From NCBI GenBank assembly GCA_944383135.1, contig CALWOL010000128.1:1-34695 (forward strand): a stretch of 34,695 bases of DNA, read 5' to 3'. This DNA comes from an uncultured Flavonifractor sp. GTDB lineage: Bacteria; Bacillota; Clostridia; Oscillospirales; Oscillospiraceae. Positions 16,547-21,859 of the stretch are shown here, one piece after another. The position numbers were made by a program, and so were the translations under genes. Under the pieces are notes generated by a model that was given only the letters and a program-made list of their open reading frames with translations, had not been told where the DNA came from and did not search any database. The first letter of the stretch is position 1; the number at the start of each line of letters is the position of its first letter.

Positions 16547-16550
16547 CGGA

Positions 16551-16584
16551 AAAGCGGAGCGTGCACGGCACGCTCCGCTTTTTT
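16551..16584. terminator. Bidirectional intrinsic terminator
   Basis: A 14-bp stem (AAAGCGGAGCGTGC with GCACGCTCCGCTTT, loop ACG) is flanked by A-rich and T-rich ends, so it has a U-tract on both strands. It ends the transporter transcript (plus) and the spoIIR transcript (minus), whose genes converge here. Confidence 0.92.
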
Positions 16585-16585
16585 A

Positions 16586-17224
16586 TCACTCCGACAGCCA
16601 ATGCTGGAAGCTCTCCCACCACTCCATGGCCCGGAATTTTACCACATAGCCCTCCTCCTCCCCGGTGATGAGGGCCACCTGGTCCTCGCTCAGTCCGGCG
16701 CTGAGGGCGGTCTGGGCGGCACTCTCGCTCACCGAGCCCAGGCACAGGGGGGGAAAGACCACGCACCACCAGTTCTGCCCGCCGCCGTCGCCGATCACCA
16801 CCCGAAGGGCGGTGTATGACCCGGCGGGGAGCGCGAAGTCCTGATATTCCTTGGTGGGGAACCAGCAGTCCTCCTCCAGGGAGACGGTGACCGGGTAAGC
16901 ATAGCCCGCTTCTCCCACCGCCTCCGCCCCGGCGGCGGCCAACTCCTCCAGATGGCTCCCCAGGGCGGCCAGGGCCTCCGCCCGGTCCCCGCCGGCGGGG
17001 AGGAAGGCCTCCGCCTCCGCCAGCACCCGGTCCCGCACCGCCAGTTTCAGGGCTTGGTCTGCCTGGGAGTCGGAATTGGCCAGCACGTGGAGGCGGATAA
17101 CCTGCTCCGCCAGGGCGGCCTGGCCGCGGTCCAGCCAGCCGCCCAGCAGGGCGGCCAGGGCCAGGCCCAGCAGCAGGGCCAGATCCCACCGGCGGAGGGT
17201 ATGTGTCTGAAAAACACGCTTCAT
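16586..17224 (-). CDS. spoIIR: Stage II sporulation protein R
   Basis: This 212-aa secreted signalling protein has an N-terminal hydrophobic signal (about 12-30) and the family hallmark VIRLHVLANSDSQADQALK followed by AVRDRVLAEA. Later conserved blocks are PVTVSLEEDCWFPTKEY and ALPAGSYTALRVVIGDGGGQNWWCVVFPPLC. In known spore formers it is made in the forespore under sigma-F, is exported, and triggers SpoIIGA to activate pro-sigma-E in the mother cell. The ATG at 17222-17224 is chosen because GGTGA lies 7 nt upstream; a TTG at 17242 has no such site. That Shine-Dalgarno lies within a long hairpin. The gene is last in a run of six minus-strand genes. Confidence 0.96.
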   Translation of the reverse strand: MKRVFQTHTLRRWDLALLLGLALAALLGGWLDRGQAALAEQVIRLHVLANSDSQADQALKLAVRDRVLAEAEAFLPAGGDRAEALAALGSHLEELAAAGAEAVGEAGYAYPVTVSLEEDCWFPTKEYQDFALPAGSYTALRVVIGDGGGQNWWCVVFPPLCLGSVSESAAQTALSAGLSEDQVALITGEEEGYVVKFRAMEWWESFQHWLSE

Positions 17225-17231
17225 GTAACAA

Positions 17232-17271
17232 TCACCGTCCAAAATGGATTTGCCTCCATTCTGGACGGTGA
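17232..17271 (-). promoter_or_regulatory. 17-bp hairpin burying the spoIIR ribosome binding site
   Basis: Positions 17255-17271 and 17232-17248 are inverted repeats with one A/G difference that becomes a G-U pair in minus-strand RNA, so all 17 positions pair around the loop GGCAAA. The 3' arm ends in GGUGA, the spoIIR Shine-Dalgarno, 7 nt before ATG. No U-tract follows, so it is unlikely to be a terminator for ispE. In mRNA read through from ispE it should block spoIIR translation. Confidence 0.8.
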
Positions 17272-17286
17272 GATTGGATTTTATAC
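17258..17286 (-). promoter_or_regulatory. Candidate sigma-F promoter of spoIIR
   Basis: On the minus strand GTATA (17282-17286), a 15-nt spacer and GTCCAGAAT (17258-17266) fit the forespore sigma-F pattern (GYATA, then GGnnAnAhT) with one mismatch at the second G. The -10 element lies in the 5' arm of the hairpin, so transcripts would begin near 17250-17252, within the loop. Confidence is limited because the motif is short and was matched by eye. Confidence 0.5.
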
Positions 17287-17292
17287 CTTTTT

Positions 17293-18162
17293 TCAGCAGG
17301 CACCTGCCGCCTCCACCAAAAAAGTTTCCCGGTACAGCGGCTCCAGGGCGGCATAGGCCGCCTCCGCCTCCGCCCGGCCGGGGAACAGGCCGAACACGGT
17401 GGGACCGGTGCCGCTCATGGAGGCCCCCAGGGCTCCGTGCTGGATGAGGGTGTTTTTGATGGCGGCAATCTCCTGGTACCGCCGGCGGGGGAGCACGTCC
17501 TCAAAGACGTTGTACATCCGCCGGGCCACCTCCGGCAAATCCGCCCCCGCCAGGGCGTCCATCAGCCCGGCGGTGTCCGGCCGGCGGAGGATGCGGCAGC
17601 CGTCCAGGGCGCGGAACAGCTCCGGGGTGGACACGGAGAAGGCGGGCTTGCACAGCACCACCTGACAGTGAGGCAGGGGCGGCAGGGGGGTGAGTATCTC
17701 CCCCCTGCCCTCCGCCAGGGCGGTGCCCCCGGCCACGCAGTAGGGCACGTCGGAGCCCACCAGGGCGCCGATTTCTTCCAGCCGCTGCCGGGAAAGCCCC
17801 AGGTTCAGCAGCTGGTTCAGTCCCCGGAGCACGGCGGCGGCGTCGGCGCTGCCCCCGGCCATGCCGGCGCACACCGGGATGGTCTTGTCCAGACGGATGG
17901 CCAGCCCGCCGGGGTCGGTCCCCGTCTCCCGGCACAGGGCCAGGGCGGCGGCGGCGGCCAGATTGTGCTCGTCGGCGGGGAGAAAGCCCAGATTGCTCGC
18001 CATCTCCAGGCCGCGGCCCGTGCCGGTGGTGAGGGTGAGCCTGTCCCGGAGGGTGACGGTCTGCATCACCATCCGCATGTTGTGATAGCCGTCCGGCCGC
18101 TTGTCCAGCACGTCCAGGGAGAGATTCAGCTTGGCGCAGGCAAAAACCTCGGTGGCTGCCAT
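17293..18162 (-). CDS. ispE: 4-(cytidine 5'-diphospho)-2-C-methyl-D-erythritol kinase
   Basis: This 289-aa GHMP-family kinase phosphorylates CDP-methylerythritol in the MEP pathway to isoprenoids. Markers are the N-terminal ACAKLNLSLDVLDKRPDGYHN, the ATP-binding loop PVCAGMAGGSADAAAVLRGLN (about 91-111) and the C-terminal GASMSGTGPTVFGLF. Length matches the family. ATG at 18160-18162 has AAAAGGAGG upstream. It lies 14 nt after the DUF1015 gene and 68 nt before spoIIR; ispE next to spoIIR is a layout known in several Clostridia, as far as I recall. Confidence 0.96.
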   Translation of the reverse strand: MAATEVFACAKLNLSLDVLDKRPDGYHNMRMVMQTVTLRDRLTLTTGTGRGLEMASNLGFLPADEHNLAAAAALALCRETGTDPGGLAIRLDKTIPVCAGMAGGSADAAAVLRGLNQLLNLGLSRQRLEEIGALVGSDVPYCVAGGTALAEGRGEILTPLPPLPHCQVVLCKPAFSVSTPELFRALDGCRILRRPDTAGLMDALAGADLPEVARRMYNVFEDVLPRRRYQEIAAIKNTLIQHGALGASMSGTGPTVFGLFPGRAEAEAAYAALEPLYRETFLVEAAGAC

Positions 18163-18176
18163 GGCGGAGCCTCCTT

Positions 18177-19466
18177 TTATCGAATCTTCCGCGCCTCCAG
18201 ATAGAAGCGCTTGTCATGGGCGTGGCCCATGGAGAAGGTTTTCCGGGGGAGCACTCCGTCCCGGATGACGGTGGGGAAGAGCTGATCCTTCCCCATGGCG
18301 GGAAGGAGAAAGGCCAGGTTGCCCGGCTGCCGGGCCAGCTGCCGGGCCACGTCCTCCCCGTGGATGTAATCCATGCGCACGCCCCGGGCCTTGACATATC
18401 CGTCCAGGAAGCCCTGGAGGGTGCCCACCGCCAGCTGGCTGGCGGGGTGGGGGATGGTGATGGCGCCCGCTCCGCCGGCGTGGACGTAGCGGAGCACGTG
18501 GCCCGCCCCCTCCCCCGGATGGGCGCCGGGGAAGGCGGCGCACAGGCTGGCCGTCACATCCGCCGTATCCACCCCGAAGAGCACCCGGTGGATGGCCTCA
18601 AATTCCAGGGAGGGGTCGTGGAGGTTCACCAGCTCGCACAGGGCGAACCGGGCGGGCAGGCTGTCCCATTTATCCCGGGGAGTAAGCCGCTTCTGCCGCT
18701 CATAGCACTCCTTGGCGGTGGCCAGGGAGTGGTTGCCGTCCCCCACGGCGAAGAGCATCACAGCCCCGCTGTCCGCCCCATATTTCTTCCGGAAGGCGGC
18801 GGGGTCGGCCAGGGCGGACAGGGCGGCGGCGACGTGCTCCATGCTCGCCCCGTCCAGCCGCCAGCCGGTGATGTGCCCTCCCCGCTCCATCAGATCAAAG
18901 TCGTACACCAGCTCCATCTCCGCCGTCCGGGCGGCCAGGGGCTCAATCACGGTTTTGTCCGGGTCGTCGGCCAGCAGCATGGCGTGGGGCAGCTCCAGAG
19001 GGGCGTTTTTCCGCACCGCCACCCGGGGCGGGATACGGGCCATGACGGTACCCTCGGTGGCCCGGATGGCGGCGGAGGAGCCGGGCTCATAGTCGTACTG
19101 CTCCAAATCCACCATGCCCACCAGACCCCGGCGGAGCCTGCCGTCGTCCAGCCGCCGCTCCACATAGACAAGGGAATCCGGCAGCGCCCGGAACCGCTCC
19201 TCCCGCAGGTAGCGGGTCATGGTGTTGTTGACCTCCATGATATCAGTCTCCACATTGGGACCGTCCAGGCAGCTCTCCGGCAGGATGAGCCGCAGGGCGG
19301 AGGGGGCGGAGCCCACGTATTCCTCCACCCGCTGCCAGTATTCCGGCTGGGAGGTGTACTGGTCGCAGGCCACCACCGACCACTTGCCGTAGGCGCAGTT
19401 CTGGGGCAGCAGGATATCGGCGGGGCGGAAGGGGAGCTGGGAAAAGCCATGCATCATGTTTCTCAC
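18177..19466 (-). CDS. DUF1015 family protein
   Basis: This protein of about 429 aa belongs to DUF1015 (PF06245). It begins with a conserved block around FRPADILLPQNCAYGKWSVVACDQYTS; a central motif reads AVGDGNHSLATAKECY (about residue 245). That site occupies the place of the DGHHR motif in other DUF1015 members and recalls ParB/sulfiredoxin-fold nucleotide-binding proteins. The biochemical role is not firmly established; genomic links in other bacteria often point to serine metabolism. Here it sits 14 nt downstream of thrH, a phosphoserine phosphatase homologue, which fits that link. The start is uncertain between GTG at 19466 (AGGAAG only 3 nt upstream) and ATG at 19457. Confidence 0.88.
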   Translation of the reverse strand: MRNMMHGFSQLPFRPADILLPQNCAYGKWSVVACDQYTSQPEYWQRVEEYVGSAPSALRLILPESCLDGPNVETDIMEVNNTMTRYLREERFRALPDSLVYVERRLDDGRLRRGLVGMVDLEQYDYEPGSSAAIRATEGTVMARIPPRVAVRKNAPLELPHAMLLADDPDKTVIEPLAARTAEMELVYDFDLMERGGHITGWRLDGASMEHVAAALSALADPAAFRKKYGADSGAVMLFAVGDGNHSLATAKECYERQKRLTPRDKWDSLPARFALCELVNLHDPSLEFEAIHRVLFGVDTADVTASLCAAFPGAHPGEGAGHVLRYVHAGGAGAITIPHPASQLAVGTLQGFLDGYVKARGVRMDYIHGEDVARQLARQPGNLAFLLPAMGKDQLFPTVIRDGVLPRKTFSMGHAHDKRFYLEARKIR

Positions 19467-19480
19467 TCGCTTCCTGTCTG

Positions 19481-20083
19481 TCAGTCCATGGCGCCGCGGA
19501 TGGCGGCCAGCAGGTCGGGGAATTCCTCATAGGCGGGCAGCTGGGGGTAGTCGGCCTTGATCTGGGGGGTGCTCTTGAACAGGAAGCCCGCCTTGCTGGC
19601 CTGAATCATCCCCAGGTCATTGAAGCTGTCTCCGGCGGCGATGGTGTCGTAGCCGATGGATTGCAGGGCCTTCACCGTGGTGAGCTTGGACTGGGGGCAG
19701 CGCATCTGAAAGCCGGTGATGGCGCCGTCGGGCGCCACCTCCAGGGTGTTGCAGAACAGGGTGGGCCAGCCCAGCTTGCGCATCAGGGGCTGGGCAAACT
19801 GCTCAAAGGTGTCGCTGAGGATGATGACCTGGGTGAAGGAGCGCAGCTCGTCCAGAAACTCCCTGGCCCCCGGCAGGGGGTCGATGGTGGAGATGACCTG
19901 CTGAATCTCCTTCAGGCCCAGGCGGTGCTCCTTCAGAATGTCCAGGCGGAAATGCATCAGCTTGTTGTAATCGGGCTCATCCCGGGTGGTGCGGCGCAGC
20001 TCCGGAATGCCGGTGGCCTGGGAGAAGGCAATCCAGATTTCGGGGACCAGGACCCCCTCCATATCCAGACAGGTGATGTACAT
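19481..20083 (-). CDS. thrH: ThrH: phosphoserine phosphatase / homoserine phosphotransferase
   Basis: This 200-aa HAD-superfamily enzyme has motif I LDMEGVLVPEIW, where the second Asp of the usual DxDGT is Glu, a ThrH hallmark. It also has TGIPELRRTTRDEPDYNKLM, motif II serine in VIILSDTFEQF and motif IV GDSFNDLGMIQAS. In Pseudomonas ThrH removes phosphate from phosphoserine and can pass it to homoserine. Length and motifs agree closely with that family. ATG has AAAAAGGAGG upstream. It is the third gene of the lrp operon, between an aminotransferase and DUF1015, suggesting a serine/threonine-related role. Confidence 0.93.
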   Translation of the reverse strand: MYITCLDMEGVLVPEIWIAFSQATGIPELRRTTRDEPDYNKLMHFRLDILKEHRLGLKEIQQVISTIDPLPGAREFLDELRSFTQVIILSDTFEQFAQPLMRKLGWPTLFCNTLEVAPDGAITGFQMRCPQSKLTTVKALQSIGYDTIAAGDSFNDLGMIQASKAGFLFKSTPQIKADYPQLPAYEEFPDLLAAIRGAMD

Positions 20084-20099
20084 ACCCGTTCCTCCTTTT

Positions 20100-21293
20100 T
20101 TAGCCTTCCTGCGCCCTGGCCTGCTTTTTCTTCAGGTTGGTCAGGAAGTTGTCCAGCCGGGTCAGTGCCTCGGCAATATCCTTCATGGAGGTGGCGTAGC
20201 AGCAGCGGACAAAGCCCTCCCCGCCGGCGCCGAAGGCGGAGCCGGAGATGACCGCCACCTTCTCCTCCATCAAAAACCGCTCGCAGAAATCGTCGGAGCT
20301 CAGGCCGGTGCCGCGGATGTCGGGGAACACATAGAAGGCCCCCTTGGGCTCGAAGCAGGGCAGGCCGATGCGCCGCAGGCCCTCCACCAGATAGCGGCGG
20401 CGGCCGTCGTACTCGTCCCGCATGTGCTCAATGTCCTTGTCCCCGTTGCGCATGGCCTCAATGGCGGCGTACTGGCTGGTGGTGGGGGCGGACATGATGC
20501 CGAACTGGTGGAGCTTGCGCATCTGCTGGACGATGGGGGCGGGGCCGCAGACATAGCCCATCCGCCAGCCGGTCATGGCGTGGCTCTTGGAGAAGCCGTT
20601 GACCACGATGGTGCGCTCATACATGTCGGGCAGGTTGGCCATGGACACGTGGTGCTGGCCGTAGGTGAGCTCGGCGTAGATTTCGTCAGAGAGCACCATG
20701 ATGTCGGTGCCCCGGAGCACGTCGGCAATGGCCTCCAGGTCCGCCCGCTCCATAATGCCGCCGGTGGGGTTGGAGGGGAAGGGGAGCACCAGCACCTTGG
20801 TGCGGGGGGTGATGGCGGCGCGCAGCTGCTCCGGAGTGAGGCGGAACTCGTTCTCCGCCTTCAGCTCCACGTATACCGGCGTACCACCCGCCATGGAGGC
20901 CAGGGGTCCGTAGCACACGAAGGAGGGCACGGGGACAATCACCTCGTCCCCGGGATTGAGCAGGCAGCGCAGGGTCAGATCAATGGCCTCGCTGCCGCCC
21001 ACGGTGACGATGATCTGATGGGCGAAGTCATACCTCAAATCAAACCGGCGGTCCAGGTAGGCGGCAATCTCCCGGCGCAGCTCGGCCATACCGGCGTTGC
21101 CGGTGTACTTGGTGAAGCCCTTTTCCAGGGAGTAGATGCCCGCGTCCCGGATGTGCCAGGGGGTGACAAAGTCGGGCTCCCCGATGCCCAGGGAAATGGC
21201 GTCCTTCATCTCCTCCAGAATATCGAAAAAGCGGCGAATTCCGGAGGGCTTGACCTCCTGGATGCGCTTGCAGAGTATCTCGTCGTAATTCAT
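20100..21293 (-). CDS. PLP-dependent class I/II aminotransferase
   Basis: This 397-aa fold-type I aminotransferase resembles aspartate/aromatic aminotransferases of the PatA type. Conserved parts are ISLGIGEPDFVTP (about 35-47), GNAGMAELRREIA, the PLP-ring Asn in FPSNPTGG, LSDEIYAEL with the PLP-nitrogen Asp, the Schiff-base lysine in VNGFSKSHAMTGWRMGY (about 235) and the C-terminal carboxylate-binding Arg in GFVRCCYA. The exact amino acid is not clear. ATG at 21291-21293 overlaps the Lrp stop (ATGA), so an upstream in-frame start at 21305 is less likely. Pairing with an Lrp-type regulator suggests control by an amino acid. Confidence 0.93.
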   Translation of the reverse strand: MNYDEILCKRIQEVKPSGIRRFFDILEEMKDAISLGIGEPDFVTPWHIRDAGIYSLEKGFTKYTGNAGMAELRREIAAYLDRRFDLRYDFAHQIIVTVGGSEAIDLTLRCLLNPGDEVIVPVPSFVCYGPLASMAGGTPVYVELKAENEFRLTPEQLRAAITPRTKVLVLPFPSNPTGGIMERADLEAIADVLRGTDIMVLSDEIYAELTYGQHHVSMANLPDMYERTIVVNGFSKSHAMTGWRMGYVCGPAPIVQQMRKLHQFGIMSAPTTSQYAAIEAMRNGDKDIEHMRDEYDGRRRYLVEGLRRIGLPCFEPKGAFYVFPDIRGTGLSSDDFCERFLMEEKVAVISGSAFGAGGEGFVRCCYATSMKDIAEALTRLDNFLTNLKKKQARAQEG

Positions 21294-21766
21294 GAGAAAA
21301 TCCACTCCTTCTCCTGCTTCTCCTGCTTTTCAAAGATGAGGTGCTTCTCCTTATACTTGTGCAGGATAAAGTGAGTGGCGGTGCCGGTGACATCCTCCAG
21401 GGTGGACAGCCGCTCCCCCACAAACTGGGCCACTTCCTTCAGGGTGCGGCCGGAGATAATGACAATCAAATCGTAGGCGCCGCTCATCAGATAGACGCTC
21501 TCCACCTCGTCATACTGATAGATGCGCTCGGCCACCCGGTCAAAGCCCTCGCCCCGCTGGGGGGTGACCTTGACCTCGATCAGGGCGGTGACGGATTCCC
21601 GATCCGTCCGGTCCCAGTCCACAATGGCCTTGTAGCCCAGGATAACCTTCTCCTCCTCGTACCGTTTGACGGCGGCCTTTACCTCCTCCACGGACAGATC
21701 GGCCATGGATGCAAGCTGTTCAGGGGTCAGGGTGCAATCATTTTCCAAAAGCTGGAGCAGCTTCAT
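21290..21766 (-). CDS. Lrp/AsnC family transcriptional regulator
   Basis: This 158-aa regulator has an N-terminal winged helix-turn-helix (about 8-50, LTPEQLASMADLSVEEVKAAV) and a C-terminal Lrp/AsnC (RAM) ligand-binding domain (about 60-140, with VTALIEVKVTP and YLMSGAYDLIVIISG). A charged Lys/Glu/Gln tail follows. ATG at 21764-21766 has TTGGAGG upstream; an in-frame start at 21799 lacks one. It is the first gene of the minus-strand operon and overlaps the aminotransferase gene by 4 nt, so it probably senses an amino acid and controls its own operon. Confidence 0.93.
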   Translation of the reverse strand: MKLLQLLENDCTLTPEQLASMADLSVEEVKAAVKRYEEEKVILGYKAIVDWDRTDRESVTALIEVKVTPQRGEGFDRVAERIYQYDEVESVYLMSGAYDLIVIISGRTLKEVAQFVGERLSTLEDVTGTATHFILHKYKEKHLIFEKQEKQEKEWIFS

Positions 21767-21830
21767 AGCGCGAATACCTCCAATCCAGATGATTTCCATG
21801 CAAAATAAACGGAAAACATGATTTCCCTCT

Positions 21831-21859
21831 ATTATATACGCCCTGGGGAAGAATTACAA
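21831..21859 (-). promoter_or_regulatory. Promoter of the lrp-aminotransferase-thrH-DUF1015-ispE-spoIIR run
   Basis: On the minus strand TTGTAA (21854-21859), a 17-nt spacer and TATAAT (21831-21836) form a good sigma-A promoter. The leader to the Lrp ATG is about 58 nt. Gene gaps downstream are 4-nt overlap, 16, 14, 14 and 68 nt, so this may be the main vegetative promoter for all six genes. Confidence 0.8.

Follow-up and report, generated by a model that had tools for sequence, protein, structure and literature searches.

A candidate insulator hairpin between ispE and spoIIR in Oscillospiraceae overlays a sigma-F promoter motif, a Shine-Dalgarno sequence and, in most relatives, a terminator-like U-run

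In phage T4, the leaders of gene e and of the intron endonuclease gene I-TevI can form a stable hairpin, which masks the start site when early RNA reads through from upstream (PMC3014915, PMC2988022). A stage-specific promoter at the 5' strand of this hairpin yields an RNA that is unable to form it. A hairpin of 20+ bp was proposed to block translation of spoIIG read-through RNA at sigG (spoIIIG) of B. subtilis, as stated in the available text of a paper that names Masuda 1988 as its source (PMC5942855), and it cannot form in the RNA from the gene's own promoter. For C. difficile, the accessible part of one report describes spoIIR expression as sigma-F-dependent and sigma-F promoters as marked by a conserved G upstream in the -10 element (PMC3789822). 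Intrinsic (Rho-independent) terminators have a stem, a short loop, and a U-run.

The leader of spoIIR described here resembles those of the T4 genes in its hairpin, predicted to hide the start site, and in a candidate stage-specific promoter at the hairpin's 5' strand. With sigG it shares the forespore programme and a hairpin that would be unable to form in the own-promoter RNA. In the available text the T4 lock acts by translation, whereas most members of the spoIIR element add a U-run, and the gene concerned is a bacterial developmental one. Compared with sigG, both the gene and its neighbour are different, and the available source text gives the sigG hairpin no terminator role. Most relatives' copies have the stem, short loop, and U-run of an intrinsic terminator, but the 5' arm is also the promoter -10 and the 3' arm the Shine-Dalgarno sequence, and the copy in our window is without a full U-run. 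The promoter-in-hairpin lock itself is already known; the overlay of terminator, promoter, and start site is a new form of it. Judging from sequence comparison and predicted folds, we consider it likely that the element is a short insulator, common to much of the family, which combines an ispE terminator, a sigma-F promoter, and start-site hiding in one hairpin. The earlier note on this DNA knew of no described example at spoIIR; likewise, the literature that we looked through on the question, as far as its sources were available and with poor coverage of subscription papers (mostly outside the search), describes no hairpin or terminator there.

The window, i.e., the whole analysed stretch of 34,695 nucleotides from an uncultured Flavonifractor sp., carries spoIIR on its minus strand at 16586..17224, with the ATG start codon at 17224-17222. 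The SpoIIR match is above the cut-off for PF09551 (149.5 bits, cut-off 25) and slightly below it for TIGR02837 (146.3 bits, cut-off 151.9). Upstream lies ispE (17293..18162, minus strand; TIGR00154, 236.4 bits), separated from spoIIR by 68 nt, the gap given in the earlier note, and closing a housekeeping run. The closely spaced ORFs upstream of ispE (18177..21799, minus strand) are the likely source of read-through. They comprise an ORF without an NCBIfam match (18177-19466), ThrH (19481-20083), an aminotransferase (20100-21305), and an Lrp/AsnC-type regulator (21290-21799), all on the minus strand. A sigma-70-type promoter-like site, TTGTAA-17-TATAAT, called by consensus match only, precedes the run on the same strand (21831..21859). 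Since ispE closes a tight ORF run behind such a site, read-through into spoIIR is a real prospect. At 16550-16585, between spoIIR and a convergent transporter gene, the sequence reads as a bidirectional-looking terminator.

The ispE-spoIIR gap contains an inverted repeat with 17-nt arms that are 94% complementary and a 6-nt loop. The order on the minus strand is GTATA, 15 nt, GTCCAGAAT, loop, GGTGA, seven nt, ATG. GTATA (17282..17286) is taken as the sigma-F -35 element from the sequence and from the N15 spacing kept in relatives. GTCCAGAAT (17258..17266), assigned as the -10 element by sequence reading and comparison, lies within the 5' arm (17255..17271), an arm defined by the repeat and by covariation. 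The loop GGCAAA (17249..17254) holds the predicted sigma-F start, which promoter geometry would place ~6-8 nt past the -10. The 3' arm (17232..17248), defined by the repeat and the fold, terminates in the Shine-Dalgarno GGTGA (17236-17232). It is followed by the spacer TTGTTAC (17225..17231), by its T count a degenerate counterpart of the U-run of relatives. All these features are on the minus strand. The earlier note had described the repeat, its full pairing with one G-U in minus-strand RNA, the Shine-Dalgarno at the end of the 3' arm 7 nt before the ATG, and a sigma-F-like promoter with its -10 in the 5' arm; each of these observations is borne out. The predicted fold of the minus-strand RNA of 17200-17300 has an energy of -38.8 kcal/mol, whereas shuffled sequences average -19.2 (z -6.2; 0/200 shuffles as good). 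A known Rfam leader was ruled out: no leader or riboswitch exceeded its gathering score in 16900-17600, and the single match (E 0.39) reached 20.5 bits against the 64 needed.

The promoter at spoIIR has the sigma-F form GYATA, 15 nt, and a G..A.AMT-type -10. The window's -10 mismatches the second base of GGNNANANT, which we take to be the B. subtilis sigma-F -10 consensus. The pattern GYATAA-N14-GNNNANAMT occurs three times in the 2.3 Mb genome of the window, including the spoIIR site (reversed control, 1), and five and six times in two congeners (reversed controls, 1 and 4, respectively). The -10 assignment is further supported by a gene for a SpoIIQ-like protein of the M23-peptidase type, which has the motif GTATA-N15-GTC(C/A)ANA(A/C)T ahead of it in each of 16 congener leaders inspected.

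Leaders of spoIIR were gathered from 20/20 congeners, from at least 66 named loci, and from a family draw and a class draw, 286 loci in all. The family draw gave a match in 121/150 genomes (121 of 123 places used), and the class draw in 92/118 (79 used). One locus without a usable start (L288) was left out, and removal of duplicates left 264 loci, namely 187 genus, family, and named loci (a few of the named ones from outside the family) and 77 loci of the class draw. Genomes were incomplete in many cases, and start codons were assigned by script, some of them wrongly. A promoter score of at least 16, a threshold reached by 1.5% of shuffled leaders, was obtained for 150/187 genus, family, and named leaders and for 44/77 class leaders; 37 of the 187 have no promoter by this score. 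The spacing equals 15 in 146/150 relatives and 33/44 class leaders, by a score that ranked other spacings 1.5 lower.

A stable hairpin with at least five paired -10 bases is present in 126 of the 150 promoter-bearing leaders, which are non-redundant and mostly from Oscillospiraceae, vs 8/44 elsewhere in the class; the other 24 have no clear hairpin. At least five paired -10 bases are common in shuffles of the 150 (1905/3750). Paired -10 bases with an energy as low as observed were found in 56/3750 shuffles, and paired -10 bases with a U-run of at least 5 T of 8 in 101/3750.

A covariance model was built from 64 leaders, and scoring covered the top 150 candidates of each genome. The best match is at spoIIR in 20/20 congeners, and directly before the start codon in 19; 15 of these 20 matches hold by construction, because the congeners concerned are in the model. 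No second copy of similar score appears among the best 150 candidates of any congener (for example, the next candidate in G001 scores 39.7 vs 77.2 bits). A repeated mobile palindrome was rejected on this single strong copy per congener. In the family draw, 46/61 genomes have some match at E up to 1, with its position at spoIIR checked for part of them, and 15/61 have none at that E. The arm pattern alone has 145 scattered near-matches in the window's genome vs 32 in the reversed control, as counted with individual sites uninspected. In one congener, G017 (L030, G017:C2:13850-13915), the full element lies ~270 nt upstream of spoIIR, and the 3' half of the leader is found at the start codon. In two family genomes without a PF09551 match (L341 and L348, in G098 and G060), the hairpin-promoter precedes short remnants that resemble spoIIR but lack its central part. 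Two class-draw leaders (L152, L271) show a different lock, in which GTCAATACTC, the -10, could base-pair with GGGTATTGAC within a Shine-Dalgarno stretch that reaches the ATG.

The arms covary. When 3' arms were swapped among 134 of the 150 loci, without selection for the hairpin, leaders folded at -23.6 kcal/mol with their own arm and at -13.6 with a swapped one. The 80 usable family-draw loci alone gave -23.1 and -12.8, and a small effect was also seen in 36 class loci (-9.0 and -6.7). From 110 leaders in which the hairpin was already present, 64 were chosen and aligned. Their alignment spans the -35 through the -10 without a gap, and 80% of its cells pair. Double-changed cells number 136 vs 48 after shuffling and 21-54 in slid registers, and the covariation score is 0.346 vs 0.153 shuffled and at most 0.097 slid. 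Double changes fall in 12 of the 17 stem pairs, hardly above shuffles (9.8; reached in 13/500). A further count, meant to reduce the influence of kinship, took nearest relatives in 32 disjoint pairs; they contain 43 double changes that keep pairing vs 4-13 in slid registers, in leaders chosen for the hairpin. Pairs gained or lost from one relative to the other number 100 in register, about as many as in slid registers (96-129). In the genus itself, the -10 base that is free to vary covaries with its partner: C, A, or G stands opposite G, U, or U. The alignment of the ispE-spoIIR gap proposed in the earlier note finds both paired arm changes and kept sigma-F boxes across many genera. Some 3' arms (e.g., L052, L060, L110, L163) carry TACATA(A)GGACGG, which recurs in several genera despite bulged pairing and is perhaps retained for its AGGA Shine-Dalgarno.

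The predicted cost of opening the start region was compared between a long RNA coming from upstream and a short RNA assumed to start 6 nt past the -10. In the window it is 17.8 kcal/mol in the long and 7.9 in the short RNA, in line with what the earlier note expected from such folds. The medians for 90 loci of type A, defined below, are 20.5 and 5.8; the values are 10.6 and 4.2 for 20 type-C loci and 6.3 and 5.6 for 36 class loci. The start site is therefore predicted to be sequestered in RNA started upstream. The promoter that would bypass the 5' arm has a motif conserved in place, and its start point is a predicted one.

The earlier note saw in this a lock against read-through, with no terminator between ispE and spoIIR. 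The lock part stands, as pairing and the placement of the -10 and of the start site recur and covary and opening costs more in the long RNA, but it is incomplete, having missed a U-run in most relatives. Among the 8 bases that come behind the last G-C pair, 106/150 relatives have 5 T or more vs 2/44 class leaders. Because the U-run comes after the stem in these 106 leaders, which have both parts of an intrinsic terminator, their hairpin resembles one that would end the ispE operon. The absence of a terminator holds for the window, which has an interrupted U-run with 4 T of 8 and in which a simple scan calls none, whereas the other 15 of the 16 hairpin-typed genus leaders have 5-7 T of 8. The U-run form is carried by the cultured relatives Flavonifractor sp. 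An82 and An112. The scan, which allows no mismatch, called L016 and left L015, L160, and the window uncalled.

We sorted the 150 leaders by script into type A (91; stem, U-run, and nearby ATG), type B (13; U-run or near it, and a more distant ATG), type C (20; nearby ATG without U-run), other (4), and weak (22); the types include wrong start codons (e.g., L127 and L188, labelled B). The 13 type-B loci were read: two have wrong start codons, and 11 are plain terminator-like hairpins with the -10 in the 5' arm and a separate downstream Shine-Dalgarno; nine of these 11 have a U-run of at least 5 T of 8. Type C is heterogeneous; among its members are the window and the named Oscillibacter leaders L055, L058, and L059, in which the arms pair without a U-run. 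The T fraction in the 7 nt before the start codon is 0.57 in all 150 leaders vs 0.43 in the 44 class leaders. We give no weight to the value for type A, 0.84, since that type had been selected for T; the unselected gap is smaller.

The hairpin could act by translation only, hiding the start site in read-through RNA with termination irrelevant. The lock alone fits the window, with its 4 T of 8 and no terminator called, and an Oscillibacter-like group, including the three leaders without a U-run; in the window the element may be nothing beyond a promoter-in-hairpin lock. As an account of the whole family this is unlikely, given the U-run in 106/150 leaders and the type-B loci, where the Shine-Dalgarno is separate (11/13) and the lock weak (median long-short difference of 5.1 kcal/mol in 10 script-typed loci).

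Less likely still, the ispE operon could simply end in an ordinary terminator, whose overlap with the following promoter comes from the shortness of the gap and nothing else, with start-site hiding incidental. The loci with a U-run and the type-B loci agree with it, and so does the position of the ispE stop codon. In 67/117 loci the -35 box supplies this stop codon as its TAA, so an earlier terminator has no room there; in none of the 117 does ispE end at or past the -10, and in 17 it ends more than 30 nt upstream. On the other hand, leaders such as those of the window and Oscillibacter, which belong to the 20 loci of the mixed type C, keep their pairing without a U-run, and the start site in the stem is what is left there. 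A DNA inverted repeat bound by a dimeric regulator, which the near-perfect palindrome of the window could suggest, is very improbable and was rejected, as bases of the outer and inner arm change while RNA-type pairs including G-U are kept, bulges and variable loops occur, and the 20 congeners have no second copy of similar score among their best 150 candidates each.

We therefore return to the insulator reading, in which the 5' arm doubles as the spoIIR sigma-F -10, the 3' arm as its Shine-Dalgarno, and the U-run as the spacer to the start codon, each as suggested by the sequence. The genomic context favours it: with upstream context scored as ispE present or absent, the hairpin was found in 101/113 promoter-bearing loci with ispE upstream and in 16/37 without it, the 37 including three with too little upstream sequence (Fisher p 4e-8, kinship ignored), and the lack of room for an earlier terminator where the ispE stop lies in the -35 box agrees with it as well. 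RNA coming from ispE would fold the whole hairpin and be released at the U-run, and leftover read-through RNA would be untranslatable. Forespore sigma-F polymerase would start in the loop and make RNA without the 5' arm; because this arm is missing, such RNA could not terminate at the hairpin and its start site would be free. For most relatives we expect transcription coming through ispE to stop at the hairpin before translation plays a role. With its broken U-run, the window's species would depend mainly on the translational lock. SpoIIR made outside the forespore would activate sigma-E at the wrong time in B. subtilis, and keeping it out of non-sporulating cells would presumably be of benefit. 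We lean, with somewhat less confidence, towards a four-way overlay in Oscillospiraceae: a ~60-nt stretch with the ispE stop in the -35, the -10 as terminator 5' arm, the Shine-Dalgarno as 3' arm, and the U-run as spacer, in which lineages have shifted between terminator, lock, and both, and the window has lost its U-run.

The SpoIIQ-like gene may have a second read-through lock. Its set comprises 18 good matches in 20 genomes, with two partial ones left out; the M23-peptidase domain was found in L359, and from it we infer the SpoIIQ-like identity. In 16/16 leaders (L418-L433), the Shine-Dalgarno region has its pairing partner in the spacer of the promoter rather than in the -10. An arm swap detected no covariation in these leaders (own, -16.7; swapped, -16.6 kcal/mol). 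The result is flat because the 3' side hardly varies, and the case is therefore a lead only. If true, further sigma-F genes may be locked against read-through.

Separately, sigG is split at the GVP-MIVGEI codons in 11/20 congeners into two parts lying 3-7 kb apart on one contig, and the first part is inverted in three of the 11. In L413 the second part has as its neighbour a large serine recombinase (Resolvase, Recombinase, Zn-ribbon). The split has the look of a skin-type element, a subject on which the literature looked through offered no title or abstract. The gene is unsplit in the other nine congeners, including the window's genome. Two sigG-like genes of nearly full length are present in the window's assembly (G000 C48:34420-35178 and C167:2787-3542), so the bin may be mixed.

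The insulator reading offers a testable way in which a tightly packed genome could silence a sporulation gene beside constantly transcribed genes. With the terminator, the promoter, and the start site on the same bases, the trading of roles among them would be traceable across the family. If the four-way overlay is true, a single ~60-nt stretch ends an operon, silences its leakage, and starts the gene for sporulation's cell-to-cell signal.
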